A model generated the notes under the pieces. It was not told the origin of the DNA. It made no database searches and saw only the letters and a list, made by a program, of their open reading frames with translations. This document shows positions 40,219 to 63,980 of a DNA stretch of 64,000 nucleotides, one piece after another. Position 1 is the first letter of the stretch; every line of letters starts with the position of its first letter. The stretch is from Chrysomallon squamiferum (lineage: Eukaryota > Mollusca > Gastropoda > Neomphalida > Peltospiridae): the NCBI GenBank assembly GCA_012295275.1, contig CM022672.1, forward strand, positions 22,389,128 through 22,453,127, given 5' to 3'. The translations under genes and the position numbers were made by a program.

Positions 40219-41561
40219 AAGAGAGACAGGCTACATAATTACTGGTAAAAGAATATGTGCTGAAATCTAATAACTTACAATTTAATAATTTAGTTTTGTA
40301 TGTTAATATTATCTCTAAATATTAACATGAAATTGAAATAATAAAATCAGTCAGCCAGTGATATTCAGATTTTTATTTGGTAAGATGCTTGATTTAGAAA
40401 AGTGAAAGAAAAGTAACAAAATTCTGTGTTTCATATTTGTATTTTATTTAAAAATGTACTTTTATTTTGAAGATGTTGATAAAGAAGATACCCGGAAAGT
40501 CATCAGACTGTCAGTGGATCATTTAAATCAGAAATACAAAAACAAGGTTTCTTTACTCTAGACTCATAAATGGATACCGCCGCTTTGATCCTCAGCGAGG
40601 TATGGAGTACATCCTGGATATTGCGCTGAATGACACGACAGATCAGAACAAACAAGTAGAAAAAAGAATTCAGATAGTGCGACCTCTTGGTCATGTAGAC
40701 ATTGTACCTATGCCAGAAACAAGAAAAAACACAACAGTCAATTTGATTCTGCCTCTATCAGATGATGATGAACATGGATTGGATAATTTTCTCAGATCTT
40801 ATACGAAAATCTGTCAACAAAAAAATGACAAAACTAACCTGCTGATTGTTTTAATTTATAGGTATGGTGGTAATATGACTGATGTCTTTTCAGTTTTGAA
40901 ATCAACAGTTTCATATTATGAAAGATTATGCAAAAATGGAGCAAAGATTTCATGGACCCCTCTGTACACCAATTCATCGTACATTTCTGAATTTGCTATC
41001 ATGGATGTTGTTTCACAGAAATTCTCTGAAGATGATCTACTGCTCATGTGCAGTGTGGGTATGGAATTAGCAACAGAATACTTGAACAGAGTTCGAATTA
41101 ACTCAATTCAAGAATGGCAGGTGTTTTTTCCAGTTGGGTTTTGGCAGTATAAGCCAAACCTTGTATACAGTCACAAACCATATCCAAAAACTGTAGAAAT
41201 AAAACCCAGGACAGGTCACTATGACATCCATTCTTTTGAACACTGCAGTTTCTACAAGTCAGATTATACTGCTGCTGTAAAAGTGCTGTATCCATATGAT
41301 ACACAGACACACAGTCTCTATGACATGTTTGTCAAATACAAGAAAGTTCATGTATTCAGGGCTATTGAACCAGATCTCAGACATCGGTACAAATCATTCA
41401 AATGTGCATCCTCAATGCCAGAACCGATGTACGAGAGGTGTAAGAAACGGCGGTCAGAAGGACTGGCCACTCGTGGTCAGCTGGCTAAATTAGTGTTTGA
41501 AAAGCAGTTAAAGGAGGAACAACATCAATTGGAAATGTTGAAGAATAAAAAAACAAGATGA
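37458..41561 (+). CDS. CHPF: Chondroitin polymerizing factor-like (CHPF/CHPF2) Golgi protein, with an apparent frameshift
   Basis: A type II membrane protein of the chondroitin synthase family, a partner needed with chondroitin synthase to polymerise the GlcA-GalNAc backbone in the Golgi. Coding exons: 37458-38096, 38586-38699, 39175-39314, 39622-39740, 40017-40130, 40473-41561 (the last interrupted, see 40559), about 737 residues against about 775 in human CHPF. Signal anchor at about residues 12-31. Recognised blocks: ASVELGIRKKLFVAVLTS, KYCSPEGGVILS, RLINGYRRFDPQRGMEYILD, EWQVFFPVGFWQY, CSFYKSDYTAA and the C-terminal GLATRGQLAKLVFEKQ. The DDD-type site of chondroitin synthases is replaced by FVTDQTY (about 163-169) and the DVD-type site by SVGME (about 570), as expected for a catalytically weak CHPF rather than CHSY. 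CHPF and CHPF2 cannot be told apart here. Confidence 0.9.
38967..39218 (+). repeat. 124-bp tandem duplication copying the CHPF exon 3 acceptor
   Basis: Two nearly identical 124-bp copies, with the acceptor cattttgaag|GGAAAAGTATTTGG at 39050/39051 and again at 39174/39175. Only the second leads into an open exon. The first copy reads GKVFGHYRIENFDFE and then meets an in-frame TAA inside the next copy. Few differences separate the copies, so the duplication is recent. Confidence 0.92.
40473..40561 (+). other. CHPF: Frame break in CHPF: in-frame TAG before the conserved RLINGYRRFDP block
   Basis: The exon opens in phase 1 at 40473 and reads DVDKEDTRKVIRLSVDHLNQ and so on to a TAG at 40559-40561. 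The conserved block starts at AGA 40560, one base out of frame. Both sides match CHPF, so one extra base or two missing bases lie between about 40540 and 40560. The 15-nt gap starting gtttct and ending ctag cannot be an intron because removing it does not restore frame. Confidence 0.8.
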
Positions 41562-44230: not shown

Positions 44231-47200
44231 TTAGCACATTTCTTTTTCTTTCAGTTTACGGGCTCGATTTTTCTCCACATATTTTTGTTTCAGAAGCTTA
44301 AGAAGATTCTAAAAGAAGAAGAAAAAGAAGAAGTAATATTAGTTTGTTACAAAATTCAGTTTAATAAAAGACTTAGTTTTTTAATTTATTATTTTTATAA
44401 CAATATCTGAATCAGGAATATGGACTGTAAAACAAAAGAGCCTCATTTCAAGAAAGAAAGAAATCCATATGGCCAATATGATTTATAATTGGGATTTCAA
44501 AAATAATTCATCAAGAATAAAAATCCATTTGAATGGCGATACTGATAATTAAAACAATTACAGTTTGCATTTATTATTTAATAAATTCCAATATGAAAAT
44601 ATCACACCAAAACTCACAGGATAGGCACTGGTACATTTATAATTAATTAACTTGAGTCACTAAGTCAGTACATAAGTTTTAAAGACAGCTGACTTGAAAA
44701 GAGAACTTCACAACAAATTACTATAAATTTTTATCACAAAATTATAATTCTTTTTGTGATCTTGATGAACAGATTTATATTTACAGATTATTTAATTTAA
44801 TAGAAATAAAAAATAAGCAATTGTTCACCTTAGGTACTGATTTCTTGCCAGGTTTTTCAGCTGCTTCTTGGAGATCAGGAAGACTTATACCTTTTGCTAA
44901 TAGCTCATCTTCAGATATTTCGATAACTACGGAGCCTCTTTCTGCATCATTTTCCTAAATAATTCCAAACAGATTAAGTGAAGGAAAAAGAATGAATTTA
45001 TAAATGAGTCATTAAGATCACTGATATTATTTTTTTTTAACATTTAGTAAGAAAAAAAAAACATTACCAAATTAATAAAAGCCATTAAAAAAGGTTAAGT
45101 TTCATGAAGCTAAAAATAAAAAAATAAAAATAATTTAACTTTTTTCAGTGTTTAATGCAAAAATTTGTTAATTTGTTATTAATGTTTCATTAGGACAGCC
45201 AATACATCTGTTTAGCCCCAAAGGATTTAGCATTCTGACAAATAAAAGCAAAGTTCACATTTTTACAAAAATAATTTTAATATACATGCATACAATGTCA
45301 CTACTGAGGAAATCTTTGTCAGTTTCATTTATGAATCTATTTCTTACTTCATAAATAATAAAGATTTTTTATCACTCAGTCAGCTCCAAGTAATAAATTT
45401 GTTTCTGATTTTCATTACTGTTGTTAACATATATGGCAAGAACATCAAACGATCTTACTGTATATAACTGTAAGCTCTATAAAAGGCTCTGTTAGAAACA
45501 TACCTGCCTGCCTGTGATTTGCATAGATTCTAAGTAGCACCACCATTCTGTTAATTATTTCATATGTTGGTTTATTCATTGACTAATCACAAATACAAGC
45601 TTTTTTTCTCATATAATCTATAGACCCCCTACACACACACAACATTTAAGGCATACTGTTTTGCAATGATAGTAAATTATTTGTTTAATTATAAAAGACT
45701 TCAACTAATTAAATATTATATTATTCATTTAACTTACACATTTTGTTTTCAGGCAAGAAGACCAAGAATTATCATTTTCATCATAATGCACTGTTTTTTT
45801 CCCTTGCTAGAATTTCGGAAAAAATTAATATGTCAGTACTTCTAGAGCATTTAACATTAAACATTTTAAAAAGTATAATTGTGTCATTTCTTGTGCTAAA
45901 TGTGGATTCATCTTTCATTATATGATAAATATAAATGTGAAAAAGAAATTGGGTTTATAGAGGAAAAATACACACAGCAATGGCTTATTACTTGCTTCAT
46001 GCGTTATCTAAAGGTTGAAATCTGAAATGGATTTGACTTTATTAAATAAAGATGAACAAATTCTCATTAAATATCTAAATATACTCAATTATTTTATTTT
46101 GCTGTACTACATAAATCATAACATACTGTGATTTAAAAATAATAATAATACACAGGTATGATTCATCTGTGTATATTACTAGTAGATGTAGGAGTAGCAG
46201 CAGTAGTATTAGTATTATTATAGTATTAGTATTAATATAGTAATAGTAACAATAGCAGTAACAGTAGTGGTTATTGTAGTAGTAATAGCAGTAGTAATAA
46301 CTGTATTAACAGCACTATACTAGTAAACATTAGTACTAGCAGTAGTAATATCAGTACTAATGACAGTGGTTGTTCTAGCAGTGATAGTTGTATATGTAAC
46401 TGTAGTAGCTGCATTGAAAAGAAAAGTTAACAAGTTATTCCTGCATCCTGAGAACTATATTATGAGTAAACTGTTCTCATATGCATAGTTCAAATCTCCT
46501 TTGTGACTCACTGTCTTAGATTTCTGGTGAACTTTTGGTGATACAGTTTTTTTGGCAGGTTCTGGTTCCGCATTTTCTGTTGTTTCTGATTCAGAGTCTG
46601 GTGCCTTTGTTTTCAAAAATAACAATTAATAAATTCTTTAAAACTAAACCTAAAATGATAATGTTATTACCACTAATAATTTGTTAATTACTAATTAAAT
46701 GCAATATATATGAAAAAATAATAATAACTCAACAGTAACATCTTAAACATCTTACGTTAATATGTTTTTAAGAAAACATGTGAAGAAATGCCTTGTGTTG
46801 TCTCTCAGTGTTTTAAATTTAATTATGATGAATTAGAACTAAGAATTATCTTTCACAAATTTTTTTTTTTTTTTTAATTTAGGGCAAAAAAAGAAAAATT
46901 AATTTGGAGACAAAGAATTTTTGACATAAATTTGAGTTAAATTTTTTTTTTTAAATTGTTATACCTTTTAAAAAAATATTAATAACAGTTTAACTTACAG
47001 CAATGAATTGCCATGAATCATTATCATGTATCAGTTCAACAAAAGGTTTTGTCCTCTGCTCCTTTATCATTACATCTCTATCAATGCCTGAAAATTCATT
47101 TTGGCTTGGTGTCACTATTTCTTCAAGAACACCCTCCTCCATAGCTAATAATCGCCTGGAATGTGGTGGTGGCTGTAACAATAAATGAAATAATAATAAT

Positions 47201-49142
47201 AAAAATAATAATATGTACATGTGTACATACATACAATGTCCCTACTGAGGAAATCTTTGTCAGTTTCATTTATGAATCTATTTCTTATTTCATAAATAAT
47301 AAAGATTTTTAATCCCTCAGTCAGCTCCAGGTAATAAATTTGTTTCTGATTTTCATTACTGTTGTTAATGTATATGGCAAGAACATCAAACTATCTTTCT
47401 GTACATAACTGTATGCTCTATAAAAGGCTCTGTTAGAAACATACTTACCTGCCTGTGATTTGCATAGATTCTAAGTGGCACTACATTCTGTTAATTATTT
47501 TAGACATTGGCTATTCACTGACTAGTCACAAATAAAAGCTTTTTTTAACATAAAATCTATAGGCCCACACCCACCCAAAATTTAAGGCTCACTATTTTGC
47601 AATATCCATGTTTTAATTTGCCTAGGCAAACTTTTAACAGATTCTCCAGACAAATGTCTATCCAACTGAATATCAATATCTGGAAAAACATTAAATTTCA
47701 TTTACAGTCTTAAGGGTAGGTTAAGTGTGAATGATAATGAAAATTAGTTAAAAATGTCAAGGGAAACATTTATCTGTTGTAAAGGACTCTATAAGCTGAA
47801 TATTTGTTTGAACTAGTTATATTAAGTCGAATAAAACTGCATTATTTCAGTCATCACAGTTGCAGTTTGCAGATAAAGAGATAAGAGCTAAAATTTAAAT
47901 CCTTTCTCAAAAACAATCTGTTGAATAAAACATCTATACATAAAAATAAAAGAGATTGACTTATAATAATATCACATCAAAACTCTGTTCAGGGGATTAA
48001 GAACCTGCTGAGGGTACTGTATACATTAATAAAAAAGAATAGTATTTAATTTTTTTTTTTTTTAAGTCAAACCCGAAATACTTTTATTTTGCAATGTATA
48101 ATTAATAAAACAGAAAACCTAAAAATCAAAACATGCAAGTCAGTTATAAAGAGCAGCTTGTAAATTAAACAGAAAAAAAATAACAAACAACACTAAAGTA
48201 AAAAAGTAGTATAAACTGTATTATACGCAATCAAAGAACAAAAGAGAAAAAATATACATATAAAAAACAAAACAAAAGTAAAACAGTAATTTTAAACAGA
48301 CTGTGGATATTTATTCCACCTACATTTCGTCCACCAAACATTCATCCACTGATTAACTTTGGTAATTTGTTCATAAACCAGATTTATTAAATTATGGTTG
48401 ACTCAGTATTTTTTATAAACATTAATGTTTCATCCAAGATCAGAATAAATTTACGTACATTTTGTTCATGCACAAAATAAACATTATTTATTAATTTTGT
48501 TCATGTTATAATAATAAAATAAAACATTATTATTATTATTAATATTTATTATTATTATTCCATATTTTTACAGAGACAATACTCAGAATATGAAATATAT
48601 TGCTCTCTGTGCATTGCTATATGCTACATGTTAACAGAGTAAAAACCAAGTGGACAGAATGAATGGTGGACGAATCATCTCTGAACAAAATGTTTAGATA
48701 ATAAACCTATTACAGAGTTGTTTATTTAATTTTGATTTTAGTTGTTAGGATTCTTTGTTCAAAACTTGCAACATTCAGTATAACTGCATGTTTTTGGAGA
48801 AAGCTAAAGATCAAACTGTGATTCATAGACAGAATTCTCAATCATCTTACTATGAGTAGTTACTTATGATGACCAGTAACCCAGTGATTGCTTCATGATC
48901 CCTATGCTATTCATTAATATCTGTGAGGAAAACAAAGTATTCAAGTGGACAGAATGTAAGTGGACAAAATATACGATTGATGAACTGTCTAGAAAATAAA
49001 ATTCCCCACTCACAGAAGCTTTTACTTTCACATACTCTAGGTGAGGCTTATTGTCTAAAATTTTTATCATAGGCACTTTCACATATTTCTTTTCTTCCTT
49101 TTTCTTATCTGCAATGTCTTTACAGATAAGTCTGCTTCTAAA
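44231..49142 (-). CDS. C-terminal exons of the microexon gene
   Basis: Exons 49014-49142 (LICKDIADKKKEEKKYVKV, then VKVKAS), 46999-47172 (PPPHSRRLLAMEEGVLEEIV and KPFVELIHDNDSWQFIA), 46512-46604 (APDSESETTENAEPEPAKK), 44829-44954 (VVIEISEDELLAKGISLPDL) and 44231-44308 (ends KEKEMC, TAA). All join in phase 0. The HDNDSWQFIA and EDELLAKGISLPDL segments are less repetitive than the rest and are the best handles for a homology search. I recognise none of them. Confidence 0.85.
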
Positions 49143-52100
49143 CTAAAGGGAAAAAAAATAAATCAAACGATTCAGAAGATTAATTCAATGGTGTGAAATT
49201 AAATTTAATCAGACAAATGTATGTTGATGCCTTCTTTCAGAAAATTCTGTTAGTTATCCTTGAGAAACTCTGGAATAATGCAGTGAATGTAATATTTTAA
49301 ACTATTTCTTCTCACAATATGAAAATATGAAAAGAAAAGAAATAAAAATCTATTCTTTTACTATATCAAATATCCACAAATGTTACGTTGTTGTATTTCT
49401 CCTTATTATTTTATTTGTTATAAGGTTACTACTGTTTTATTAAATTATCACTGGATGCATATATAATCATCAATAATAATAAAAATGCAAAAGCAAACAT
49501 GAAATGAAACTTGTAAAAGTTATAAGCTGAATAACACAAAACAACATCTGGATTTTATACTGAGAGAGTTTTTAAATTAGAAGAAATATATTATCTTTAT
49601 AAGAATCACATACTGGTATAATAGAAAATTTTAAATACTATGTTTTATTGTTAAATATAAATATTAAGCGATGTGAAATATATCTATTATTCTTCCTTTT
49701 GGAACTAAAAATAGTCTTTAATATAAAAATGGAAAATTACTAGTTTAATAACCATATTAGCCAAGCACAATTAACTTAAGAAAACATAACACTTACAAGA
49801 TCATTACCCATATGAGCATCTGAACCACTGTAATTAAATGCTGGATTTTTTAATCTAGCTTCTGACTGCTGCAGATCCATTTTTACTCTACCATCTGCAA
49901 CTTCTGAACCACACCCTTGTTGGAGCCTGTGTCCTCCTTCCTGAACGATATCTGTTCTGTTTTTCCATTTATTCATAGCAGTGTAGCAAGGCAAATTTGA
50001 ATATCTGTTTGTTCTCTTGCCCTCTGGATGCAGTGAACCAGGTAATTCTTTGTCATGAATTATATGAGAAATATTTTGCTGGCTGAACCTTACTGACTTT
50101 TTTTCTTCTGGTTCAAAAGGAAGAGTCCTTTCACTGAGATGATCCATCATTCTGTTCCTGTTTGCAACAGGTGATATTAAAGGATCGATTTCACATCTGA
50201 CTTTCAGCTCTTGTCTCTTATTAGCTACTCTATGCTTTTTAGGAGAACCAAAATCCTTCTTAGGGTGAATTCTGACACCGCCAAATTCGTCATTGTAGTT
50301 ATCTGACTTCTCTGCCTTTATTGCATTCCAGAACAGCTGTCGAATTTCATCAGCTTGGAGTACTGCCTCTTGTTGTGTTAAAGGTCTTTTGTGTGGACTA
50401 TCTTGTCTTGTCCTCTCACTTTCCTCAGTGTTATCCAATGATAAACAACTTCTATTCTGCACAGACTCACTTAAATTCTGATTTTCTGATTTTATTTTAA
50501 GTGATTGTGGACTTTTCTCTTTCTTCATTTTATACAGCAGTTTCTCATCTGGTAACTGGTTTTTTTCCCAGGTGTTTGGAGATAAATATATAATTTCAGC
50601 ACCTGGTCCCTTTCTTGATTTTCTGGGTGATTTTCTTTTACTTTCTTTGTCTGGTGATCTTTTTGATCCACCTGGTGATTTACCTTCAGTGTCTAGTGAT
50701 TCTCTTGATCTACCTGGTGATTTATTTTCAATATCTGGTGATTTTCTTGATCTACCTGGCGATTTACTTTCAATGTCTGGAGATCTTCTTGATCTATGTG
50801 GTGATTTGCTTTCAGTATCAGGGGATCTTCTTGATCTATGTGGTGATTTGCTTTCAGTTTCAGGGGATCTTCTTGATCTCTGTGGTGATTTACTTTCAGT
50901 TTCAGGGGATCTTCTTGATCTATGTGGTGATTTACTTTCAGTGTCAGGGGATCTTCTTGATCTATGTGGTGATTTACTTTCAGTGTCAGGGGATCTTCTT
51001 GATCTATGTGGTGATTTACTTTCAGTGTCAGGGGATTTTCTTGATCTATGTGGTGATTTACTTTCAGTGTCAGGGGATCTTCTCGATCTATGTGGTGATT
51101 TACTTTCAGTGTCAGGGGATCTTCTTGATCTATGTGGTGATTTACTTTCAGTGTCAGGGGATCTTCTTGATCTACCTGGTGATTTACACATAATATCATT
51201 ATCCTCAATAATGTTCTCATACCCATCTACTGACTGTTTTGATTGTTTGGATTTCTCTGTGTTGACACCAAACATTTCTCTGTCTTTTTCTTCAAGCTCT
51301 TTCTTAAACATTTTTACTTTTCTGTCCAATCTTTCAATATCACCCACAAGAGGATCATCTGGTTTCAATATACGTCTTGCCGTAAACTGAAAGAAAATGT
51401 TTCTTTTTGTTTCACAACTGTTAATGAATTAAATTAGTTTCAAAATCAGGACAGGAAAGCATTATCACTAGTTTTCATAAGCAACCTTTTTTGAAATGAA
51501 AAAGAAAAATCATCTCCGTATTTGTAATATAGATTAGTTAGCAACATATCACTTGCAATTCGATTAATAAAAAAAGTGAAATTATTCCTTTCACAGGAGG
51601 TGAAATAAACTGTGATATTTGTTTTCAATAATTATATTGAAATGAAACTATTAAAAATTTTTAAAAAATTAGTTAGTGTTTTTTTTTTTTTTCTACTATT
51701 TCTAATACCTACTAAAGTAACCAGTATTGAGGATAATTTATTAGATCTTCTTTCTCTTTTTTGGGGTCCTTGGAATATAAAGTTAAAAAAAAAAAAAAAG
51801 AAGAAAAAAGACTGTCAACAGTTATTTTTGTTGCTTACTTCAACTGGTATTTCTGATGTACTCACAGTGGCATCAGTTGAAAAAAATAACTGAAAGAAAC
51901 AATACAAATTAAGAAAATAAAAAAACTTTTTCACTGCTTAAGAATATATATTGCGTGAGTGCCTATGTATGTATTTGTGTGTGTATATACATGCATGTGA
52001 GCATGTGTGTGTTTTGTGTGTGTGTTACAGATATGTGTAAAAAGGTGTATATGTATAAATTGTTTGTGTATGAATTATATATCCGAAAAATAATAATTCA

Positions 52101-54510
52101 TATTACTGATAAACCTTTAATGTTGCTATAATCTATTACATCTGTTGTTCCATAAAAAGTATTGTTTAAAAATATGTAACTTTGAAACTACACCAGCATA
52201 TAAATTATTATGTAAATAAAATTAGTAAATTTAGTAATATTTATACTGTTGACCATCAATTTCATGAACTAATATGGGTGAGCACTGGTCTTGATAATGT
52301 ATACATCTGTAAACATTAACCCTAAAATGTACCCAAATATTAAACATTATTACACATAACATCTATGTAATATAATAATACAAAAACAATATACAGACAT
52401 AAAGACAGTATTTATATGGAAAGAAAAATGTAGGTTAGGTTGGGTGACACATGTTAGATTAAGATGATTATGGGTGCAACAGCAAAACGTACTCTCACCT
52501 GGATGGAAAGCAAGTTGAGAGAGGGCTGCTGTGAATAATGGGACTTTAGGAAGTGGGAAATGGTGGTATGTTCAAATGTTGAGATTTTTCCAGATTTGGT
52601 CATGAAATAAGGGTCATCAGTGTTTTTGTTCATCACAAGAATTCAATACCAAAGAAATAAATTTATTTTTATTACACTTTATCTAAAATGAACCAACAGA
52701 GGCCCACCCATATACAATTTTAAAAGCAATTTTTAAAGCAAACCTTTTCACCAGAAGCATCTCTGTCACTTGGCTTTCTGGAAAACGATCGCTATAAAAA
52801 ATTTAAAAAAAATAAATAAAAATTAATTAATTTTAAATTGTATTGAATGTTTTCTTGTTTGTTTTTTAAATCATATTTAGACAATTATTTGATTTTAATA
52901 GGTGTCAAAATAGAGTTCAGTGAGAGACATTAGATGATGCAAAACTATTTAATAAAATATGTTGAGAAATCTTCTTACATCTCTTGCTTTTTCGTTTCTT
53001 GCTTTGGAACTTGATCTCTTTGAATAAACCTGTTAAAAGAAAAAAAAAAAAAAAAAAAAGAAAAAAGGTTTTTGGAACTGCTTTGATTTGTGACTAAATA
53101 CATGATGTCATGAATAGTTTCATATAAGACAAATAAGATTTTGATGTGAAATGTCAAACACACTTTATGTATAGCTATATGAAGACAGACACAAACAATT
53201 TATATATATATAAATTATGTATCAAACACTTTTTTACATATATCTGTATAAAATAACATCCATGCACATTTATGTATAGGTTTATATATGTATGCATGCT
53301 GCCAAATGCACACGAACATACACACACACAAACAAAAACACATATACCCCTACAAACACTCACATATGCATGCACATATTACATTAACTCACATCAGTAA
53401 AACTTTGCCTGTCAAGTGACAGAGAACTGGATATCCTAGATGGGGTTTTCTGCAGAATGTGAAATAAGCAAATAATGACTTAATGCCTACACAAAGTCTT
53501 AATGACAGTAACATTCCTTAATTAAGATAAAGCATTTTACAAACTTTTTTAAATAAAAAATTATGACTTTAAAAGGTATTGGTAGTTGTGTAATAATTTT
53601 TTTATTTATTTATTTTTTTATATGTTTTTTTAATTTTATTTTTAAGTTTTACTATTATTAACAGATAGCAAGTATTATGTTTACAGCCATTTTCCATACT
53701 TCTTGTGTACTCATCACATCTTAAGCAGAAAAATAAAAATTAATTTATTCAATAGATTTAGAATTTTTGCCAAATTTTTATTATTCATTCTGGCTTAGTT
53801 ACATTTATCATCAAATTCATTTTGCCATTTCTAAAATTAATCTGACATCATGAGTACAGGAAAAGAAAGGGAAAATGGCAGTCTTCCAGTTTTTTTTACA
53901 TTATTGTTGCATTTTAATTATTAGCAAACATTTTTCTCCAAAATTCAATAAAACCTTCTCTTGGAAGTAAAATTTTGAAAAAATTTCCATTGTATTTATT
54001 TATTTATATATAAATAAATAGTCTTTTTTAATTATATTTAAATAGATATATGTAAACTATTCTGAGATATAAATTATATAATTGTATTTATTTTACCTAT
54101 AATATCCCTTACCTCTCTTTTTCTGCCCTGCCTTGTTTTGGTTTTCAGAGGAATTATCTGGAATAGCATGAAAAATAATATAAAAATGACATAAAATTAA
54201 CATCATTTTGAAATTTCTATCATATTCATATTTAGGTTAAACTCTGAATGCAAATAAATGAATATGTCTGTCTATCAGCATAGAATTTTTATTTTATTTA
54301 AAAAAAAAAATATATTTATATTTTAAACAAACAAAGAGGTATTGGAAATGAAGTGCATGGTGGGCACTGTTTCACAATCTATTTATATCTTTTAATATTT
54401 TCTTGAAATCTTACCTCAATGTCACTAGTTTGCTCACTGGGTGTTTTCGATCGTATTACCTACATAAGTTAATAAACAAATTGTATGCCAGTCTCTGTCT
54501 ATATATATGT

Positions 54511-54562
<52 letters not shown>

Positions 54563-55895
54563 TATGAACACTACTTTTAAATAATTTTGTATTAAGTCTT
54601 AAATGTATGGATATATGTAAGTGGATGGACATGAATATTACAGGAAAACACAAGTCACTGGAAATTTTTCAAACTCACATCAATAATGTCTTCACTATCC
54701 ACAGACAATGCACTTAGTACCACTGCAGGAATTCTCTGATAAAAAAATTAACTCAAATATTTGGTTTATTTTACTTAATTTTTATTTTATTTTATTTTTT
54801 TTAAATTAATTTTTTTACATTTTTTTAAAATAACATGTATCATGGAACTTAAACAATTCCTCTAATAAATCTACTTATTTTGATAACAGATAATTTACAA
54901 TAAATTATAGTCATTTTCTTCTGATACATATCCAATTAAATTAAATATAATAAATTACCAAGAGATAATCTATATATAAATATATGCTTACTTCTGATTT
55001 TCTGCTGTGCTTTGATTTAGTTTTCAGAGGACTTATCTGAAAACAAAATGAAACTTCAATGCACAGATATATATATATGACATCAATAATAAAAAGAAAT
55101 TGTGGACTACAGAGAGTTCTGTATGAAGCAGACACCCAAATTAAAACATTGGGTTTAACTTTTTGCTTTTCTGATTCTCTGAATATTTTCTTTTTGCCTT
55201 TTTGATAAGTGATCTCTGTAGAAACAACCATAAAAATTATTATTAATAAACTTATATTGGAAAACAACAGAACAATAGCTTGTCTATTAATAGACAGGTA
55301 AAAAAAAAGTGAGACACAGAAATACATCCTTCATTTTCAGAATAAAATCTTCTTTAATATTCACAAATTTTATAGATGCTATAATTTTATCTCTTTCATT
55401 TCCTGCCTGTCTATTTATCTGTCTCTGTCTGTGTTCGTGTGCATGCAGTGGTGCAAATCATTTGTACCTTACTGTAAATAAACGTATTGAGTACCTAAGG
55501 TGAGCAATAGCTTATTATCCACATGACCTGCTAGAAATAATATGTGCATGATTTAAAATAAATAAATAAAAAGGTCTTGTATTAAATTATATTTTTTGGT
55601 TTTTGATTTTTGATTTTACTTACTTCACATTTTTTGCCATGCTTTGTTTTAGTTTTCTGTGGACTCTTCTGAAATGTCATACATGCATATATAAATACAT
55701 TTGTTCAATCAGTCATAATGACTGAAGAGAGTTAGTTACAAGTTTTGCTTCACAATATTTATCTTTCAAAACTTATGCAAGATAAAGTATTTTCCACTGG
55801 CCATAATCTCCTAATATTATAATACGTTTATGAGGTTATTATTTTTTTTTTCTCGTTATATTAATAGATAAACTGTCCCCGACTGGAAACTATAA

Positions 55896-55928
<33 letters not shown>

Positions 55929-58673
55929 TGTGTGTGTGTTTATATACATATCCATCCATCCATCCATATGTGTATATATATATATATATATATATGTATC
56001 TATGTATACAAACACATTCATACATGCATATATGTGCATATACATAAAAATATACACACATAAACATATACATCTTATTTTTGAAAATATGATGTCCCAA
56101 TAACTTTACTAACCTTTTGCTTGCTACTTCGTTTTTTTTTGGGTACCAATGGAATTATCTGAAAAAGTTTGATACAGAAAGAAATAATAAGAATAATTGT
56201 TCAGCATCAATCAATAAATATTTGGAATTTCTGTGTCCTTCTGTACAAAAAAGTATCAGTTCAAGACAGTGGTATGGTTTCTTTTAATGTGCGTGTTTTA
56301 ACATCCTCCTAATTTTATAATATTTTTATTTAGTTTATTATGTTTTTTGCTATTTTTATTTATAGAAGGTAGATAGACATATATAGATAGAAAGATACAG
56401 AGATCAAAAAACAAATTTCATCAGCAGGTCTACTTGTATGAAACTATATCATAAAGCAGATAACTATGTTTTCATTACCAGTTCAGAACATTGAGTAAGA
56501 TTAAAAATCTGTGTATTTTTCTTAAAACAAATTTCCCAGAAATAAATTCAAAGAACCATATGAAAATTAATATTATATTAAGCATGTTTTTGTTTTTTTA
56601 AATTTTATGTACATGTATTTACAACATGTATTTTCTTTCTTACCTCAACTTCACTAATTATGCCACTTGATGTTGCAGATGGTATTTTCTACAGAAATGA
56701 ATATGAAAAAAATATTTGCAGTACATTTCAGTCCAATAACCTGAATAAGTGAATTATAAGTTACTTTAAAGGGTCAAGGATGCAACATAAATATCATTAT
56801 GTTTGTTGTAGACAAAATTATATGAAAATATAAAATTAACAGGAGATAAATAAAGATTTAAAAGTCTGTCAAGAAATAGCTGACTCATATTAACAATACA
56901 AGCTCATAAGAAACAAACATAGCAGATGATCTCTTTCCATTACTTACATTCTTATGATGGCCATGCTTCTCTGTAGATTTCTGATGTGGAGATTTTGATG
57001 GAAAGCTCTGAATTAAAAATAAGATGTACCAGATATAATTTGATTTTGTTAATGAAATTTTAAGCTTAAATGAAAAGTTTACTGTAGCTTAACATGACTG
57101 GTCCCATTATACTTAGTCTTACAAATGATAGCTATGATCAATCCACCTGTGACCGAAACTAAGTGGTACAGCTTGATATTTACTGCCATACTGATTTTTG
57201 TAATTATGAACTAAGATAAATATAATACAGATTATTTGTAATACCTAATAATGCCAGGATAACACAGCTAGTTGTGTGGTTAGTGGTAAAAGGTTGGGGA
57301 GGGGATATCTATTGTCATAATAATTTTCATATTTATGAACTTATATATATATATATAAATGAACATTTGTAATGACTCCATAACTTTATAAACTCAAGGA
57401 ACTGTAAAATCCAATATATATATATATATATATCTTGAGCACCTTTCTAGAAGCTTCTTCATTCACATCCCGAATGAGACTTACAAATGAAGCTGAACTT
57501 GGTGTTACAGAATTTGAAGGCTGCTAAAGTTCAAACAAAACATAGTTTGTGAATAATAAGTAATCTGAAGTTGAAAACATTTTACATTAGCTACATTATA
57601 TGTGATTTACATACAGTCTTACTGTTAGTTTAACAAATTCTTACTGATTAAGATTTTTTCAATCTATAACAATATTTTAATTATTAATATAAAATCTTAA
57701 TCCAAATTCATCTATAATTTATTCTTAATTTGCATGTACTGACAAGAGAGTCTTACAATTTGTTCTGTTGTCGTTAATTTTTTTAAAGTTATTTTTAAAT
57801 GTACAGTTTTATCCTACAAGGAAAACTAGTCAATATGTAATATATATATTGTTAGTTCAGTGATCCCAGAATATCTGTTACTCACAGTATCACCATGACC
57901 TTCTCGTTTTAGTGATTTAGAAAGCTGTTGCTTCAAAATCAGTGCCTGCAAAGTAAATAAAAGAAATTACTCTTGAATATTTTATTTAATCTTAAAAGAC
58001 AACACATAACTGATAAACAGTTTGGGCTCCTGCATCTCATAGCCCAAGGCTTTCTGATGCTTTAATATGGTACTGTTAAATCTGTGTGATAATTATTTCC
58101 ATAATTACTGCAATCATACTTAGCTGCATTTATTCAACAAGTCTAGAAGACTATAAATTAATGAATGTTTTCTAATATATTCTTATATACATTTCTCCTA
58201 AGATGTTTTTCAACATCTTAAATTTTATAAAGATGTTTGTAAGTTTCCTTTGCAATATAATTACAATAAATATTAACTGTATCATAATTTATACATGTTT
58301 TTTTTTTCTTTTCTTCATACCTGCAGCTCTTGAGTAAGCCTCTCAATTTCTTCATTAGATGGTGTTTTGGCAGTTTTTTTCTGGAAGAGTTAGAAGTAAA
58401 ATCTATCAATTATCACTAGTGACACCATATTCAGTGAATAATTTATGTGCATTTTCTTTTGCCTTTTTATTAAATAATGTCTGAGAAAAGAAACGTTTAT
58501 TTTTTACTGCTTAACATTCTTGCATCTTTGCCTGTAAGGTGACCATTTATCATAGTTATCCACTATTTTAATATATATCCTAACATCTTTTGGAAATATA
58601 TAGAAGTTAATATATTATTTCAATCAAAACCTATGATTCAACCCTATTCTACAGTGTGTTTGTGTGTTTTGTT

Positions 58674-58709
<36 letters not shown>

Positions 58710-60809
58710 TCTGTGTGTATGTGTATAATTTAATGTTAAAATCAGAACATTACTTACATCAAAATCTGATGATTTAGAGTGACCTCTCTGCAAAAGTTCA
58801 AACATAACAAGAAATACAAGGATTAAGATATTTATCATTATTATTATTATTATTATTAATTTATTTCCTTTTGATTTGTTTGCTTTTTGAGGGTATTTTC
58901 ATTTTTTTTCTTTCTTATTATCATTTTACAAAACTGTAAACATTTAACTGATATCATATTGTTATTGATCAGCAATCTAGTTTACTAGACATATCTATTT
59001 AGTGAAATTATATCATATATGACTACATTTGATACTTACTTCTTCACTACGTCCCTTCCTTCCAATATCTTTAGGTCGCTTTCTGATTATCTGCTCAGTA
59101 AATAAATATATATATTTTTTATCTACATTGTATAAAGCAATAAATATCAGTAAAAACTGTGAATAAATAAGTAACATGTATTTCAAAGATATGGACAGCC
59201 GAACACTAAACATTTTTTTAAATAATAAATTAGAATGTATTTACTATGCTGACAAAGATCAAGGCAAATTAAATTATCTTCCTAATTTTCCAACTTAGCC
59301 AAGAAATACAAAATTTAAGGTCTCATATTTCCAGTTTTAAATCCAATTAAGACTACCTGAATTATTGCTGAAGATTCCTGTTTATTAGAAGACAGACATA
59401 TTGCACAGATATGCCACATATGCCTGCCACTTTATAGAATGCTGAGAGTGACATTTTTGTTTTTGTGTTATTTAAGAATGGCTAGCAACCACAGGTTTAT
59501 TCAAAGCAATATAAATTGTTAGTTTATTTCAAAATTTACCTTCCCTTCACTTCCACTTCTGACTAACATTTTAGAGCTTGATGATTTGACAGCTGATCTC
59601 TACAAAGTCAGTATAAAATCAAGTATAATTCATTCAACCCCCCACCGAAAACGAGAATAATTTAAAAAAAATAATAAAATAAAATAAAAATTATTAATAA
59701 TTTAGAGTTCCATTCATTTAAAAAAAATAAAAAAATAAATAAACTTAATATTTTTTATTTGACTGTAGTTTTGTGCTTAACTTTTTTTTTTCTCTCATCT
59801 AATCTTAAAAAAAATAACATTCTAATACCTAATCTAATTTTTTTTAAAATAAAAATAAAGTCTCGTTGAAGAAAATAATTACATGTATTATCACAACATT
59901 ATAATCATAGTTACTCACACTTTCATGCCCTCTTTTGGATTCAGAACTAGGTATCTACAAAATATAATGAAAACATTTTCACAAGGGCTATCCAATAACA
60001 TATATAGCTTTAAACAAAATGAGTGTGCTTCAAATTTTATATTTAAACCTACAGACAGGTTGCTTGATTGATTGATTGACTAATAGATACATAGATATAA
60101 ATGTTTTAAGATTTTAAAAATTACAGCCTTTTTAAAAATGTTCACCTAATGTATAGAGTAAAACCTGTTTTCTGTCATGCTCATCCAAAAAATTTGATTT
60201 AAACATACCAAATTTGGTAGGATAGCAAAGTACGAGCACCAGAAGTTCTTAAGGATTTTACCACTATTCACATCTTCAGCAAGGACCTTTGGTTTGACTG
60301 TATAAAATAACCCGTCATGGGAAGGAAGAATTTTTAACACATGCTACCATGGCATCCTGCCTATGATGCTGTGGTCTCAGGGGTGACATCATATACATTT
60401 GGAATTTGACATAATAAGTAGTTTTAACTGTTAAACTTAATCTTCTGCCTGTAATTTTTTTACCATTAAGCCATACTTGTTACTTCAGCTAGTTCTGTGT
60501 ATAAATGCATAGCATAAGAAACAAACAAAAAACGTATATAAAATACAATAATGTAAATACAGAAACAATATCTCTACTATCAACAGACAGTCATAACTAG
60601 ACTGTGACTCACATCTAATTCATCTTCTTCTTTAAGTTCCTACAAAAACAAACAAATTAAATATAAACAATCAAGATGTATATCAGAGAAACTGTTTTAC
60701 TTTCAAATAAATATGTTATCATTAGAAAATACAGAATGCTGATGTTCAGTTTTATGGGAAGGAAATAATCCAACAAAGGCAACTCATTATTACTTAACAT
60801 ACTGAATAC

Positions 60810-60853
<44 letters not shown>

Positions 60854-62009
60854 TTTTATTTAAAGATAATGAAAAATAAAAAGTACATTTATTAAATGTA
60901 CATTTACAGAATGAACTCTAAGATACATCAAGATACATCAAGTATTTTATAAATGGTATCTGGTTATACCTTCTAGATACACATATTTATCATTTCTTAG
61001 CCATTTTAACTTATTAAGAAATTTTCATGATGTCAAGAATTAACAAGTATCTAGACATATATTTTGTTTGCCATAAATAAGTTTATTTTTTTAACCTTCC
61101 ATAATAACTATATCTATAATTAATATATTTTACTCACAGTGGAATCAGCAGCATCTTTTTCCTGTGCTTCAACAGTAGATTTCTGTAATTACAACAAATG
61201 ATCATTTCTTTTTATTTTTTTTTTTTTTTTTTAACTTCTCTTTGATACTTCTATTATTATTTCCTATTTTATTTTGTCAAACTATTTAATAACAAAAAAA
61301 AAGTGTGGAAATTAAAATTATCAATCTATTATGCTATTCCACTCTACAAAATAGACTTTTAATATCTTAATTTTGCCTTCTTTTTGTGAATAAAACAGTT
61401 TTATTTAAAATTACATACTCATACAAAAACAAAAACAAAAAATGGAGTTATAAATTCACTTAATATATATTTACATATTTCCAAATGATTTAAAATGCTA
61501 ATCTTCAGTAAATATCTATTTATAACATAAATATATTTGGATTACAGACTATTGATGTTTTTAAAAATGTAAAAATAAACTCACATCATCTTCTTGAGAA
61601 TGCTTCCTGAAAAACCGTGATGCAAAGGATCCTGGTGATCTAGAGGTGGATCCCTTTAAAAGTTAAAATATTTGAAATAGTAAATCAACATGAGCAACAT
61701 GATTGATTATAGTAAAGTAAAGTTTTAAGACACAGTTTATTTTTAATTTTGTATAAAATTCTATGAGCATTAGAAAAACATGTTTCTATTTTAAATCGTT
61801 CAGTAAATATAAATGTATGCAGCATTCTAATCATTACTCATATTATTTCATTAAACATATTTTCCATTCATATTAGCTTTCACATAACTTGTGATTATTC
61901 TGACAGCCAAAATAATTTTAGTTTCTGTGTGATTAATTTATGATTAATTATTCAGTGTTAACACTCAAAATGAGGTACATTCAGTTTTTAAATTTATTCT
62001 CTTCATGCA

Positions 62010-62051
<42 letters not shown>

Positions 62052-62297
62052 AAAAGAAATCTAAGAAGTGAAAAAACTGTTTATAAAAATATATGATTGA
62101 ATTCTATTTAAGCTTAGAATAATGCTTTTTCAAATTTTTTCAAATTTAACACTAACAACTCACATCATCTGAGGTATCCTGCTTCCCAAAGAGTCTGGAA
62201 CCAAACCGCTTCAATCTTGGTGATTCAGATTTCTGACTGTCCTGCCAAAAATATTTAAATATTCTGACTTTTTCTCAAACAGGCAGTGAATCATCAT

Positions 62298-62334
<37 letters not shown>

Positions 62335-63980
62335 TTTACAGGTTATTATTTTTTTTTTCTAGTCCTAACATATGCTTTCTAAAGAGTCTTTTCAAAAGTT
62401 AAATTGTTTTTTAAATGACAAAATATTTTCACCAAATGTTAAACAGACATACAAGAAGCTAGATTTAAATAACTGAAAAACACAAAAAGTTCTTAAATCA
62501 AAAAAGAAATTATTATTTTTTTTTTAAAAGATGGTCTAATTCATTTAGTTTAACTTTACATTTCTCTCAACTTTATTTTGGTCACTTAATCATTATTTTA
62601 TTTGTTCCTTGTCAAAAAAAAAAATATAAAGATTTATGCAAGTACTGCTGTAACTTTTTTCTGAACACAACTTACATCTTTATCCTTTTTTTCTGATACT
62701 CTTGGCAACTGGAAAACAGATGACTTTTTCTGTGACATCTGTAATAACAAAATGAAGAAAAAGAAGAACATAGAAATTAGTCTCCCTTATGGTTTTTTCT
62801 AAACTATATCAAATAAGACGATATTTGTAAACAGTTCCCCATTCTAAATTATAGGTTCCAGCATGCAAAATTTGAACTTTTTTTAAATATAGAAACCAAA
62901 ATAATTTCTTTTACAAAATTTAAATGGGCTAAAAATCGTAAGCACTTTGCTCAGAGTTCAATTTTAAAAACTGCACAAGGTGTTTTGGTTAACTGTATCT
63001 AGATCAAACTATAGGAATCTGCTCAGTTTCTATTTTATTTTTAAATTTTTATTTTGCCCATCAATCAGCTTTACTGGAAACTTAATCTTAAACATTGAAA
63101 CTGGACCAAATACACTCTGTCTGACTCGTTTTATTATTATTTACATTACATACATTGCTGTCAGAATCAGACTGTCTTCGATTTGGTGACTCCGATCGGG
63201 ATCTCTGAAAAGAATCAAAAACAAATTAGTCGTAAGAAAAATTACAGGAATAACTAAGAATTTTTAAATATTAAATTTTGCCTTCTAGAATTTTTAACCA
63301 GTTAAAGAATTTTGATGTCATGTGAAAAAATGGCTTCAAAGATGCATACAAAAAAACTGTTTAAACATTTAACTAATTTTGGATGTTAAATAATAATGTA
63401 GAACTGTTAACAGGTGTATGGTAAATAAAAAAAACTATGCTTAATCCAGTTAAAAATAAATAATTTTGTGCAATGCAGAATATTCTATTTTTTTGGCATC
63501 AAAGAAATGGTTTTAAATATATCTTTATAACTGATTAGTAAAGTTTATTAAAGCATACATCATGGACTTTCTTATGATGCCTGCGACTTGATGGTGCTGA
63601 CCGTGATCGCTGTAAAAATAAATATTTTATTTTAAACATTAAGCAATCTGTCTAAATCATTTAAATGTTCAACTGATAACTTGAATAATAAATGCTGCAT
63701 TTTAATTATTTGAATGTTTCATAATCAACTGTCATCTCCTATAAAATATTTTTTGATAAATTAAAATATTAAAAATATGCTTTTTATGCTAACTTTAGTT
63801 TTGTTTTAACGAAGAAAATTTCCTTAAATCTTGTGACATGAACATATTACCTAACTATGTGGCTTTAATTTGGGTCTAAAGAGAACATTCTAGGAATACA
63901 TAATTATATACATTTATATCTGAATGGCTACTCACTTCTTTTGTTCGAGTTTGTGAAGAAGCAGAATGATCAGATGATGC
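44231..63980 (-). CDS. Unrecognised Ser/Lys/Arg-rich protein built from phase-0 microexons (3' part; 5' end outside window)
   Basis: I do not recognise this gene. From the right edge, 33 exons are visible, about 1,196 residues, ending at TAA 44231-44233: 27 microexons (51839-63980), then 49797-51386, 49014-49142, 46999-47172, 46512-46604, 44829-44954 and 44231-44308. Each internal exon is a multiple of three and all 32 introns are phase 0 with good donors (mostly gtgagt or gtaagt). The protein is largely disordered. Exceptions are short predicted coiled segments, for example EEIERLTQELQALILKQQ across exons 58321 and 57886, and IERLDRKVKMFKKELEEKDR at the start of the large exon. The C-terminus (NLLKLLKQKYVEKNRARKLK) is basic and helical. 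No signal peptide, membrane segment or enzyme motif is visible. It converges with CHPF. Confidence 0.85.
45285..45680. repeat. Copy A of a ~380-bp direct repeat in introns of the microexon gene
   Basis: The block starting TACAATGTCACTACTGAGG near 45293 and ending TACTGTTTTGCAAT near 45667 is highly similar, in the same orientation, to 47233-47605. The two copies flank exons 46512-46604 and 46999-47172, about 1.94 kb apart. Confidence 0.9.
46171..46420. repeat. Degenerate AGT/AGC trinucleotide repeat in an intron
   Basis: About 250 bp dominated by AGT, AGC, ATT and ACT triplets on the plus strand, strongly diverged from a pure triplet array, ending about 90 bp before the donor side of exon 46512-46604. 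Confidence 0.7.
47225..47610. repeat. Copy B of the ~380-bp direct repeat
   Basis: Starts TACAATGTCCCTACTGAGG near 47233 and ends CACTATTTTGCAAT near 47604. It shares long exact stretches with copy A, such as the GGCTCTGTTAGAAACATAC region. Either an interspersed element inserted twice or a segment duplicated within the gene. Confidence 0.9.
49797..51386 (-). CDS. Large 1,590-nt exon: coiled start, thirteen KSP/RS repeats, basic disordered tail
   Basis: It encodes 530 residues in phase 0. It begins FTARRILKPDDPLVGDIERL and a short charged coil ending REMFG. Thirteen 14-residue repeats with consensus KSPHRSRRSPDTES follow (minus strand, about 51185 down to 50640), then a KRKSPRKSRKGP cluster. 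The remaining 270 or so residues are Ser/Lys/Asn-rich. KSVRF at 50085-50099 fits the RVxF docking motif for protein phosphatase 1. The SP and RS dipeptides are typical targets of proline-directed and SR kinases. The donor at the left edge is gtaagt; the acceptor is tttctttcag. Antisense open frames over the repeat are shadows. Confidence 0.9.
50640..51185 (-). repeat. 13 x 42-bp coding tandem repeat
   Basis: Thirteen 14-residue units, first KSPGRSRRSPDTES, core units KSPHRSRRSPDTES, with the last three (toward the C-terminus) more divergent (KSPGRSRKSPDIEN, KSPGRSRESLDTEG, KSPGGSKRSPDKES). Central units are nearly identical at the DNA level, indicating recent expansion or homogenisation, while the edges have drifted. 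Confidence 0.95.
51839..63980 (-). CDS. Array of 27 symmetric phase-0 microexons
   Basis: In transcript order: 63936-63980, 63559-63609, 63154-63204, 62676-62738, 62164-62241, 61585-61653, 61138-61182, 60613-60639, 59919-59954, 59540-59599, 59040-59090, 58758-58787, 58321-58380, 57886-57945, 57443-57523, 56948-57007, 56644-56688, 56114-56158, 55624-55668, 54992-55036, 54679-54735, 54415-54459, 54113-54157, 53393-53449, 52979-53029, 52744-52791, 51839-51889. Sizes are 27-81 nt, the commonest 45 nt. Each has its own acceptor and donor. Modules tend to start with R, K or I plus S/P (RSRSESPN, KSPQKTKT, IIPLKTKT) and end in E, D, S or T. Intron lengths are roughly 190-950 nt. Individual exons could be alternative; their consistent frame argues against chance. 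Confidence 0.85.
52499..52543 (-). CDS. Candidate extra microexon with two possible acceptors
   Basis: On the minus strand SHYSQQPSLNLLSIQ is followed by a donor gtgaga. The acceptor cctaaag gives a 45-nt exon; an alternative acceptor attcacag gives a 30-nt exon (52499-52528). Both are phase 0 and fit the array. The composition is less basic than its neighbours, so it may be an alternative or chance exon. It would sit between the 52744 and 51839 exons. Confidence 0.45.
54516..62333. repeat. Dinucleotide and trinucleotide microsatellites between microexons
   Basis: Intronic tracts: (GT)n at about 54518-54560, (GT)n at about 55898-55939 followed by (AT)n at about 55975-55995, (GT)n at about 58675-58708, (AAT)n at about 60812-60852, (AT)n at about 62015-62047 and (CA)n at about 62302-62333. 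They lie within introns of the microexon array. None is coding. Confidence 0.85.
55160..55215 (-). pseudogene. Probable dead or poison microexon
   Basis: Minus strand: acceptor gtttctacag, then a Lys/Ser-rich reading RSLIKKAKRKYSENQKSK, composition just like the working modules, then AAAAAgttaaac. A proper 57-nt phase-0 exon would need AAG|GT; one base seems lost, leaving 56 nt and a weak donor. If spliced in, it shifts the frame. It lies between exons 55624 and 54992. Confidence 0.5.

Follow-up and report, generated by a model that had tools for sequence, protein, structure and literature searches.

A predicted array of 27 frame-neutral microexons in the tail of an apparently unrecognised membrane protein family of the gastropod Chrysomallon squamiferum

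Schistosome micro-exon genes (MEGs) are described as having symmetric exons of 6-36 bp that together occupy some 80 percent of the coding region (PMC5825161). Another account gives a wider range, 6-81 bp with most exons of 15 bp, and a longest protein of 189 residues (PMC10526429), and MEGs are further reported to encode signal peptides and to be apparently restricted to platyhelminths (PMC4350168). Here we describe a gene of the gastropod mollusc Chrysomallon squamiferum that contains 27 consecutive microexons, all of them neutral to the reading frame. The gene lies on the minus strand of a stretch of 64,000 nt (assembly GCA_012295275.1, contig CM022672.1, positions 22,389,128 to 22,453,127), which we call the window; positions below are those of the window unless marked as extended window coordinates. 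We consider it likely, at a rough probability of 0.7, that the gene belongs to a family of single-pass membrane proteins, apparently one not recognised before, and that the array in its tail grew by copying of an ancestral exon with phase 0 on both sides (a 0-0 exon).

An initial annotation of the window, made from its letters alone, had named the schistosome MEGs as the nearest parallel in architecture, and we agree. The likeness lies in the run of short, symmetric and frame-neutral exons, in a signal-peptide-like start and in a loose constraint on sequence, and the exons fit the broadest bounds published on MEG exon size (to 81 bp; PMC10526429). That the gene is a homologous MEG proper, of the schistosome type, is nevertheless extremely improbable. 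The MEG proteins of the published descriptions are short, secreted or anchored, and do not exceed 189 residues, whereas the present one has 1543. The microexons amount to 1398 nt, or 30 percent of its coding sequence of 1543 codons, against about 80 percent in MEGs; their median length is 51 nt, with only 3/27 of 36 nt or less, where MEG exons are given as mostly 15 bp; and the array lies behind a putative transmembrane helix, in a mollusc, while MEGs are apparently confined to platyhelminths (PMC4350168). In a comparison by description only, the gene is MEG-like in its frame-neutrality but not in share or length.

Titin PEVK represents a comparable evolutionary mode in a disordered region (PMC6469411). 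It too is described as having many short exons in a disordered, repetitive region that grew by duplication, with exon number setting length; the present protein differs in being a Ser/Lys/Arg-rich predicted membrane protein without PEVK composition, and Pfam found no Ig or Fn3 domain in the stretches submitted. Fibrillar collagen genes, with their arrays of 45- and 54-bp exons (PMC4450265), also are said to have gained dozens of short frame-neutral exons through repeated copying. Their lengths track the Gly-X-Y repeat, whereas those of the present array range from 27 to 78 nt and no such repeat occurs in exons 1-27. Neuronal microexons, likewise very short and frame-preserving, usually occur in isolation. 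They are described as about 30 nt or less (PMC7821500), a size that only 2/27 of the present exons have (27 and 30 nt). In human, the share of symmetric exons ranges from 42 to 46 percent with the disorder class (PMC4838654). A literature search on consecutive or arrayed microexons returned no array of this kind, as judged by titles and the beginnings of abstracts, which is not proof of absence. What the locus would add is a MEG-like, frame-neutral array in the tail of a mollusc membrane protein whose paralogues vary in their number of exons.

The array and the encoded protein

Within the window the gene model has 34 coding exons on the minus strand; the first starts at 63980 and the last ends in TAA at 44231. 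The first 27 (63980-51839) are the microexons, of 27-78 nt; each has a length that is a multiple of three, phase 0, an AG acceptor and a GT donor (27/27). Seven larger coding exons (28-34) follow, also in phase 0. All 33 introns separating the 34 exons are in phase 0, and the frame is nowhere broken. The initial annotation was thus right about the 27 consecutive phase-0 exons and about the persistence of phase 0 through the larger exons, but its upper size of 81 nt becomes 78 nt, and its six larger exons and 32 introns become seven and 33. It had also let the array run off the edge of the window. The run in fact stops there, because the next exon upstream of microexon 1 (63936-63980, 45 nt, ASSDHSASSQTRTKE) is a juxtamembrane exon of 225 nt; phase 0 alone goes on, for three introns upstream of the array.

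Extension to the 5' end, as had been proposed, added six further coding exons (69620-69438, 69198-69071, 68875-68597, 68405-68335, 65452-65360 and 64647-64423, minus strand, extended window coordinates), and with them a signal-peptide-like start, an ectodomain and a predicted transmembrane helix. In the third of these exons (68875-68597) the acceptor is unusual, following a run of A, and the exon was picked for its frame. The whole model encodes 1543 residues, with intron phases 2, 1, 1 and then 0 in 36 successive introns.

The microexons could be an artefact of choosing exon-like stretches by eye from AT-rich introns, or the locus could be a pseudogene. We scanned mechanically, under a strict splice consensus, for acceptor-donor pairs 24-84 nt apart. 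The array yielded 20 pairs. The length was a multiple of three in 18, and of these 17 were open in frame 0; multiples of three made up 1/3 pairs in the rest of the gene, 3/16 on the minus strand outside it and 5/21 on the plus strand. The binomial P of 2e-7 for this excess is a rough guide, as some pairs have a site in common. Thirteen of the 20 pairs match modelled exons, and the other five of multiple-of-three length comprise three variants of modelled exons, one stop-containing pair overlapping exon 24 and one unmodelled pair (52528-52499). As a useful positive control, scanning also picked up a Gly-X-Y array with exons of 54 nt some 43 kb upstream. The other exons served to train a codon score, which gave 266 bits in frame 0 against 27 and -157 in the other frames; by single microexon, frame 0 was positive in 27/27 and the best frame in 25/27.

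On the side of an artefact, 14/27 modelled microexons fail the strict consensus; generic splice-site weights proved too strict for this genome. The array also contains two exon-like stretches that bear a stop, at 58406-58480 (AG acceptor, 24 codons, stop) and at 55141-55215 (acceptor, 24 codons, stop), the second resembling the first over about 40 nt; both are candidates for dead copies or alternative last exons. The scan and the codon score favour real exons, however, as do the 34 exons without a frame break and a deficit of gaps in paralogue exons (see below), and together they make an artefact or pseudogene very improbable. A permissive scan of the array in any phase gave no phase-0 exon beyond those overlapping the model, and on this ground extra hidden phase-0 exons in the gaps were rejected. 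Its eight new candidates belong to other phase classes and score about 15.4-21.2, the top one (21.2) being close to the weakest modelled exons (20.6). Two weak stretches were kept out of the model: near 59380, some 21 nt noticed by eye, and the pair 52528-52499 of the strict scan.

The predicted protein has the N-terminus MLIALLLLCSLIDT. Its start, MLIALLLLCSLIDTPDGKP, is signal-peptide-like by inspection, and four paralogues have a comparable hydrophobic start. The ectodomain has eight cysteines within residues 23-102 and is followed by an acidic stalk. There is a single strong hydrophobic segment, at residues 229-247 (mean hydropathy 2.95; the runner-up segment reaches 1.24), and a transmembrane segment near 227-250 would leave a tail of 1293 residues (251-1543) that contains the microexons. 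From this we infer a type I topology with a cytoplasmic tail. The tail looks disordered by composition. The 466 microexon residues include 95 S, 60 K, 43 R, 36 E, 23 P and 18 V, and the part of the protein that the window encodes, 1218 residues, falls on the disordered side of the charge-hydropathy plot, a crude test. The earlier description of a disordered, Ser/Lys/Arg-rich region agrees with these figures.

The gene had been called unrecognised, and the searches agree with this. In a protein database, where the 7993 candidates with the most words in common were scored, a query from the C-terminal tail gave no homologue at E 0.1, and a second query from this part gave none at E 1 among 789 candidates; a search with the neighbouring gene for chondroitin polymerising factor (CHPF) found 64 proteins. 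Stretches of the microexon gene and the family ectodomains had no significant match in Pfam or the PDB. Weak matches to known domains (PUA, E 0.086; TRP, E 0.0098; DUF7748, E 0.007, in two members) were dismissed as below cut-off or composition-like, and a match of the KSP-type repeats of exon 28 to MSCRAMM adhesins (E 0.0016) was dismissed as below the curated cut-offs or composition-like. An ectodomain of LRR N- or C-cap type was considered, and no LRR profile of Pfam was matched. Against the PDB, the best hit of a single ectodomain sequence was a Toll-like receptor at E 0.41, and an eight-sequence profile gave none at E 1.

Copying of microexons and the paralogue family

Copying is best seen in exons 17-24, which fall into families of equal length: X, with exons 17 (56644-56688) and 22 (54415-54459), of 45 nt; Y, with exons 18 (56114-56158), 19 (55624-55668), 20 (54992-55036) and 23 (54113-54157), also of 45 nt; and Z, with exons 21 (54679-54735) and 24 (53393-53449), of 57 nt. 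For six of the eight within-family pairs the observed alignment score was reached by 0/300 codon shuffles, and for the pair 18/20 by 2/300; the pair 18/19 lies outside the best 22 of the 351 exon pairs. A repeat finder independently grouped exons 18, 19, 20 and 23, at 66-82 percent identity to its reference copy. The order of the families along the array, X-Y-Y-Y-Z-X-Y-Z, suggests that blocks were copied. Weaker candidates for copies are the pairs 5/6 (62164-62241, 78 nt, and its possible copy 61585-61653, 69 nt) and 2/3 (63559-63609 and 63154-63204, 51 nt each).

Beyond the families, the microexons tend to start and end alike. Codon by codon, the pattern at the start is K/R/I, S/I, P, S, K/R (15/27), S/T (16/27), S/P/K and S/T (15/27), and the order of the first nine residues was matched by 0/3000 shuffles, also when one exon per family was used. 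A motif score computed with the exon's own family left out is positive in 19/27 microexons and has P<0.05 in 13/27; the large exons 28-33 score below zero in 6/6 cases tested. At the other end, the last residue is D or E in 17/27 microexons against 4.2 expected. Acidic residues number 33 in the last three positions and 2 in the first three, with 12.5 expected for each, and the effect persists after removal of the last residue.

These likenesses bear on the uniform phase. The initial annotation had argued that so many successive phase-0 introns, if independent, were far from chance. The argument does not hold, because copies of a 0-0 exon are themselves 0-0, many of the microexons are copies, and the phases are consequently not independent. 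Uniform phase 0 is not a regional property either, since the introns of the neighbouring CHPF gene and of a neuropathy-target-esterase-like (NTE) gene, read by eye (n=14, with one ambiguous CHPF intron excluded and some NTE exons unread), have phases 0/1/2 in the ratio 6/4/4.

The N-terminal part of the protein, used as a query against the species' own genome (404.6 Mb, 22 contigs), revealed seven or more paralogous loci. Three are on contig C4 (C4a, C4b and C4c) and the others on C8, C1, C11 and C10, that on C10 being the weakest (E 8e-4); these counts are lower bounds. All 8 Cys are kept in the eight ectodomains, including that of the present gene, which were trimmed and joined by eye. By script, a phase-0 transmembrane exon was found in 6/7 paralogues and none was found in C10. 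C4a, C4b and C4c have 7, 6 and 10 phase-0 exons of 33-51 nt, respectively, downstream of the juxtamembrane exon. Past a coil exon that resembles, by eye, the start of exon 28 of the present gene, C4a and C4b each have a single exon of 45 nt and a single one of 51 nt, and C4c has the series 51-45-51-45-51; C4c also has a 44-nt copy, which would break the frame. Acidic ends (D or E) recur in 17/25 cases when the C4 microexons are counted together with two stretches of the paralogue C8b. Between C4a and C4b, 4 gap runs occur in 8 exons where the rate seen in six introns would predict 23.5, a deficit that supports coding constraint. The regions on C1, C11 and C10, scanned automatically over 30 kb, contain chiefly larger exon candidates.

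Two further observations concern the C4 genes. A second juxtamembrane-like exon stands inside their arrays (C4:5978312-5978545 and equivalents in the other two), suggesting that larger exons were copied too. Downstream, C4a has a tandem repeat (C4:6341378-6340332, KSSHRLKYRDEQDVKILPE) unlike the KSP repeat of the present gene.

Several results weigh against growth of the array by copying within a membrane protein family. The signal peptide and the topology are assigned from hydropathy and position. A pair outside the families, 2/17, was also reached by 0/300 shuffles, among 351 pairs; eight microexons (1, 5, 7, 8, 9, 12, 14 and 27) are off the motif; and many microexons of the C4 genes score low on it (mean z 0.8, with the two C8b stretches included). 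Introns flanking copied exons are no more similar than those of unrelated pairs. Whole-intron duplication was rejected for this reason, and copying is read from the exons alone. Of the four gap runs in C4a and C4b exons, two have lengths not divisible by three, both being single-base gaps from the alignment of one exon. Identity between these two genes is 0.873 in exons and 0.907 in introns, exons being no more alike, and the ratio of nonsynonymous to synonymous substitution (dN/dS) of the C4 paralogue microexons is about 0.44-0.61; both suggest that the microexon sequence is weakly constrained. Finally, C8b has only two microexon-like stretches in about 20 kb past its juxtamembrane exon, one of them without a clean phase-0 donor. 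Among copies within the present array dN/dS is mixed, with too few sites, and the pair 17/22 has dN > dS.

We nonetheless favour growth by exon and block duplication, for which a plausible course can be proposed. An ancestral 0-0 exon would have sat in a disordered tail, where copies upset neither frame nor fold, and because they were neutral in both respects the array could grow. Copying may have taken one exon at a time or whole blocks, for example X-Y-Z or the 45- plus 51-nt exons, and the copies would have piled up and diverged fast.

Possible roles of the tail

Each module would tend to supply a basic or Ser-(Pro) start and an acidic end, and the tail may accordingly be pictured as a chain of charged, phosphorylatable linkers with proline-directed phosphosites. 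Gain and loss of exons, and possibly skipping, would alter its length and the number of its kinase or docking sites. One way in which this could serve the protein is that the array is always fully spliced and acts as a disordered spacer or as a kinase substrate with many sites, in the manner of titin PEVK, exon number shifting only in evolution. To such constitutive tuning of length we give somewhat less than an even chance. The differing exon numbers of the paralogues and a composition on the disordered side agree with it, as does the enrichment of S/T-P sites, which number 11 in the microexons against 5.9 expected (P 0.016) and 34 in exons 28-34 against 9.5 expected, there mostly from the KSP repeats. 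The role itself is inferred, however, the excess in the microexons is modest, and the other site types tested there gave no clear enrichment.

As had been pointed out initially, any subset of the microexons can be joined without a frameshift, all 27 being frame-neutral. Every combination stays in frame, which is no evidence in itself that combinations are made. That combinatorial splicing is the purpose of the array, many skip combinations yielding many putative tail isoforms, is possible but doubtful. Modules that are neutral to the frame, mostly share a charge pattern and join cleanly in any subset would suit it. So would the alternative donors of two exons: microexon 15 (57443-57520, 78 nt in the model, donor GTGCTC) may end instead at 57485, at a stronger in-frame donor (GTAAGT) that gives 36 nt, and in microexon 27 (51839-51889, 51 nt) another in-frame donor follows the first 24 nt and would give an exon at 51889-51866. 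G as the last exon base is also rarer here (9/33) than in introns of the neighbouring genes read by eye (9/14; P 0.02), which could ease regulated inclusion. Against this stand the strong donors, with GTGAGT or GTAAGT as the intronic part in 19/33 introns, and the fact that duplication by itself accounts for frame-neutrality.

A fast-evolving family of immune-type receptors, with tail diversity serving signalling, would be consistent with three related genes on C4 and at least eight loci overall, with loosely constrained tails and with a Cys-rich ectodomain. Nothing significant in Pfam or the PDB points that way, though, and all 8 Cys are retained across the ectodomains; we regard this reading as quite improbable. 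A bolder proposal, which we hold to be unlikely, is that a mollusc receptor family varies its intracellular tail and not its ectodomain. Interchangeable, frame-neutral microexons would come and go from one paralogue to another and be included selectively in transcripts, and each gene might thereby make many signalling tails.

A family of such arrays would allow one to ask whether they are a by-product of the copying of symmetric exons in disordered regions or the outcome of selection for splicing diversity. Such arrays could also be an easy source of error for automatic gene finders.

Remaining exons and neighbouring genes

The other microexons, all on the minus strand, are microexon 4 (62676-62738, 63 nt), 7 (61138-61182, 45 nt), 8 (60613-60639, 27 nt, the smallest), 9 (59919-59954, 36 nt), 10 (59540-59599, 60 nt), 11 (59040-59090, 51 nt) and 12 (58758-58787, 30 nt). 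By eye, a likely helix begins in microexon 13 (58321-58380, 60 nt) and runs on into microexon 14 (57886-57945, 60 nt). Microexon 16 (56948-57007) has 60 nt, and past the families stand microexons 25 (52979-53029, 51 nt) and 26 (52744-52791, 48 nt). The largest exon of the window part, exon 28 (49797-51386, 1590 nt), has a coiled-coil-like start and KSP-type repeats, about 13 tandem copies of 42 nt, that is of 14-residue KSP units, at 50637-51187. It is followed by exons 29 (49014-49142, 129 nt), 30 (46999-47172, 174 nt), 31 (46512-46604, 93 nt), 32 (45738-45806, 69 nt) and 33 (44829-44954, 126 nt) and by exon 34, the last coding exon with the TAA (44231-44308, 78 nt by coordinates). Two introns of the gene contain a 261-nt repeat, 94 percent identical between 45283-45543 and 47224-47484, which is possibly a mobile element.

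Downstream, the CHPF gene stands tail to tail with the microexon gene. Its long last exon matches the Pfam family CHGN (E 2.8e-90) and, in the PDB, chondroitin sulfate synthase 2 (E 4.6e-53). The nearest of its 64 database matches is from Haliotis (53 percent) and the best 19 or so are chiefly from gastropods; in a tree of 25 of the 64 proteins it stands beside gastropods with support of 91/95, which is short of the tool's threshold for a firmly placed fork, on a long branch. Composition had at first suggested a cephalopod, an origin rejected because this protein points to gastropods. Compared with the Haliotis protein, the CHPF-like reading frame breaks at 40543-40548 (plus strand), between QKYKN and FLYSRLINGYRRF, which reflects either an assembly error or a real break. 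A tandem duplication of 124 nt, 98 percent identical, at 38966-39219 (plus strand) takes in some of a CHPF exon together with the flank upstream of it. Farther left lies the NTE gene, with NTE P-loop, cNMP-binding and patatin domains; in the left half of the window the analysis covered these neighbouring genes alone. On the other side, upstream of the microexon gene, the stretch at about 103512-113259 (minus strand, extended window coordinates) carries a fibrillar-collagen-like gene whose phase-0 exons have 54 nt, and between the two genes is another at about 77676-83327 (extended window coordinates) that we take to be an ATF6-like bZIP gene.

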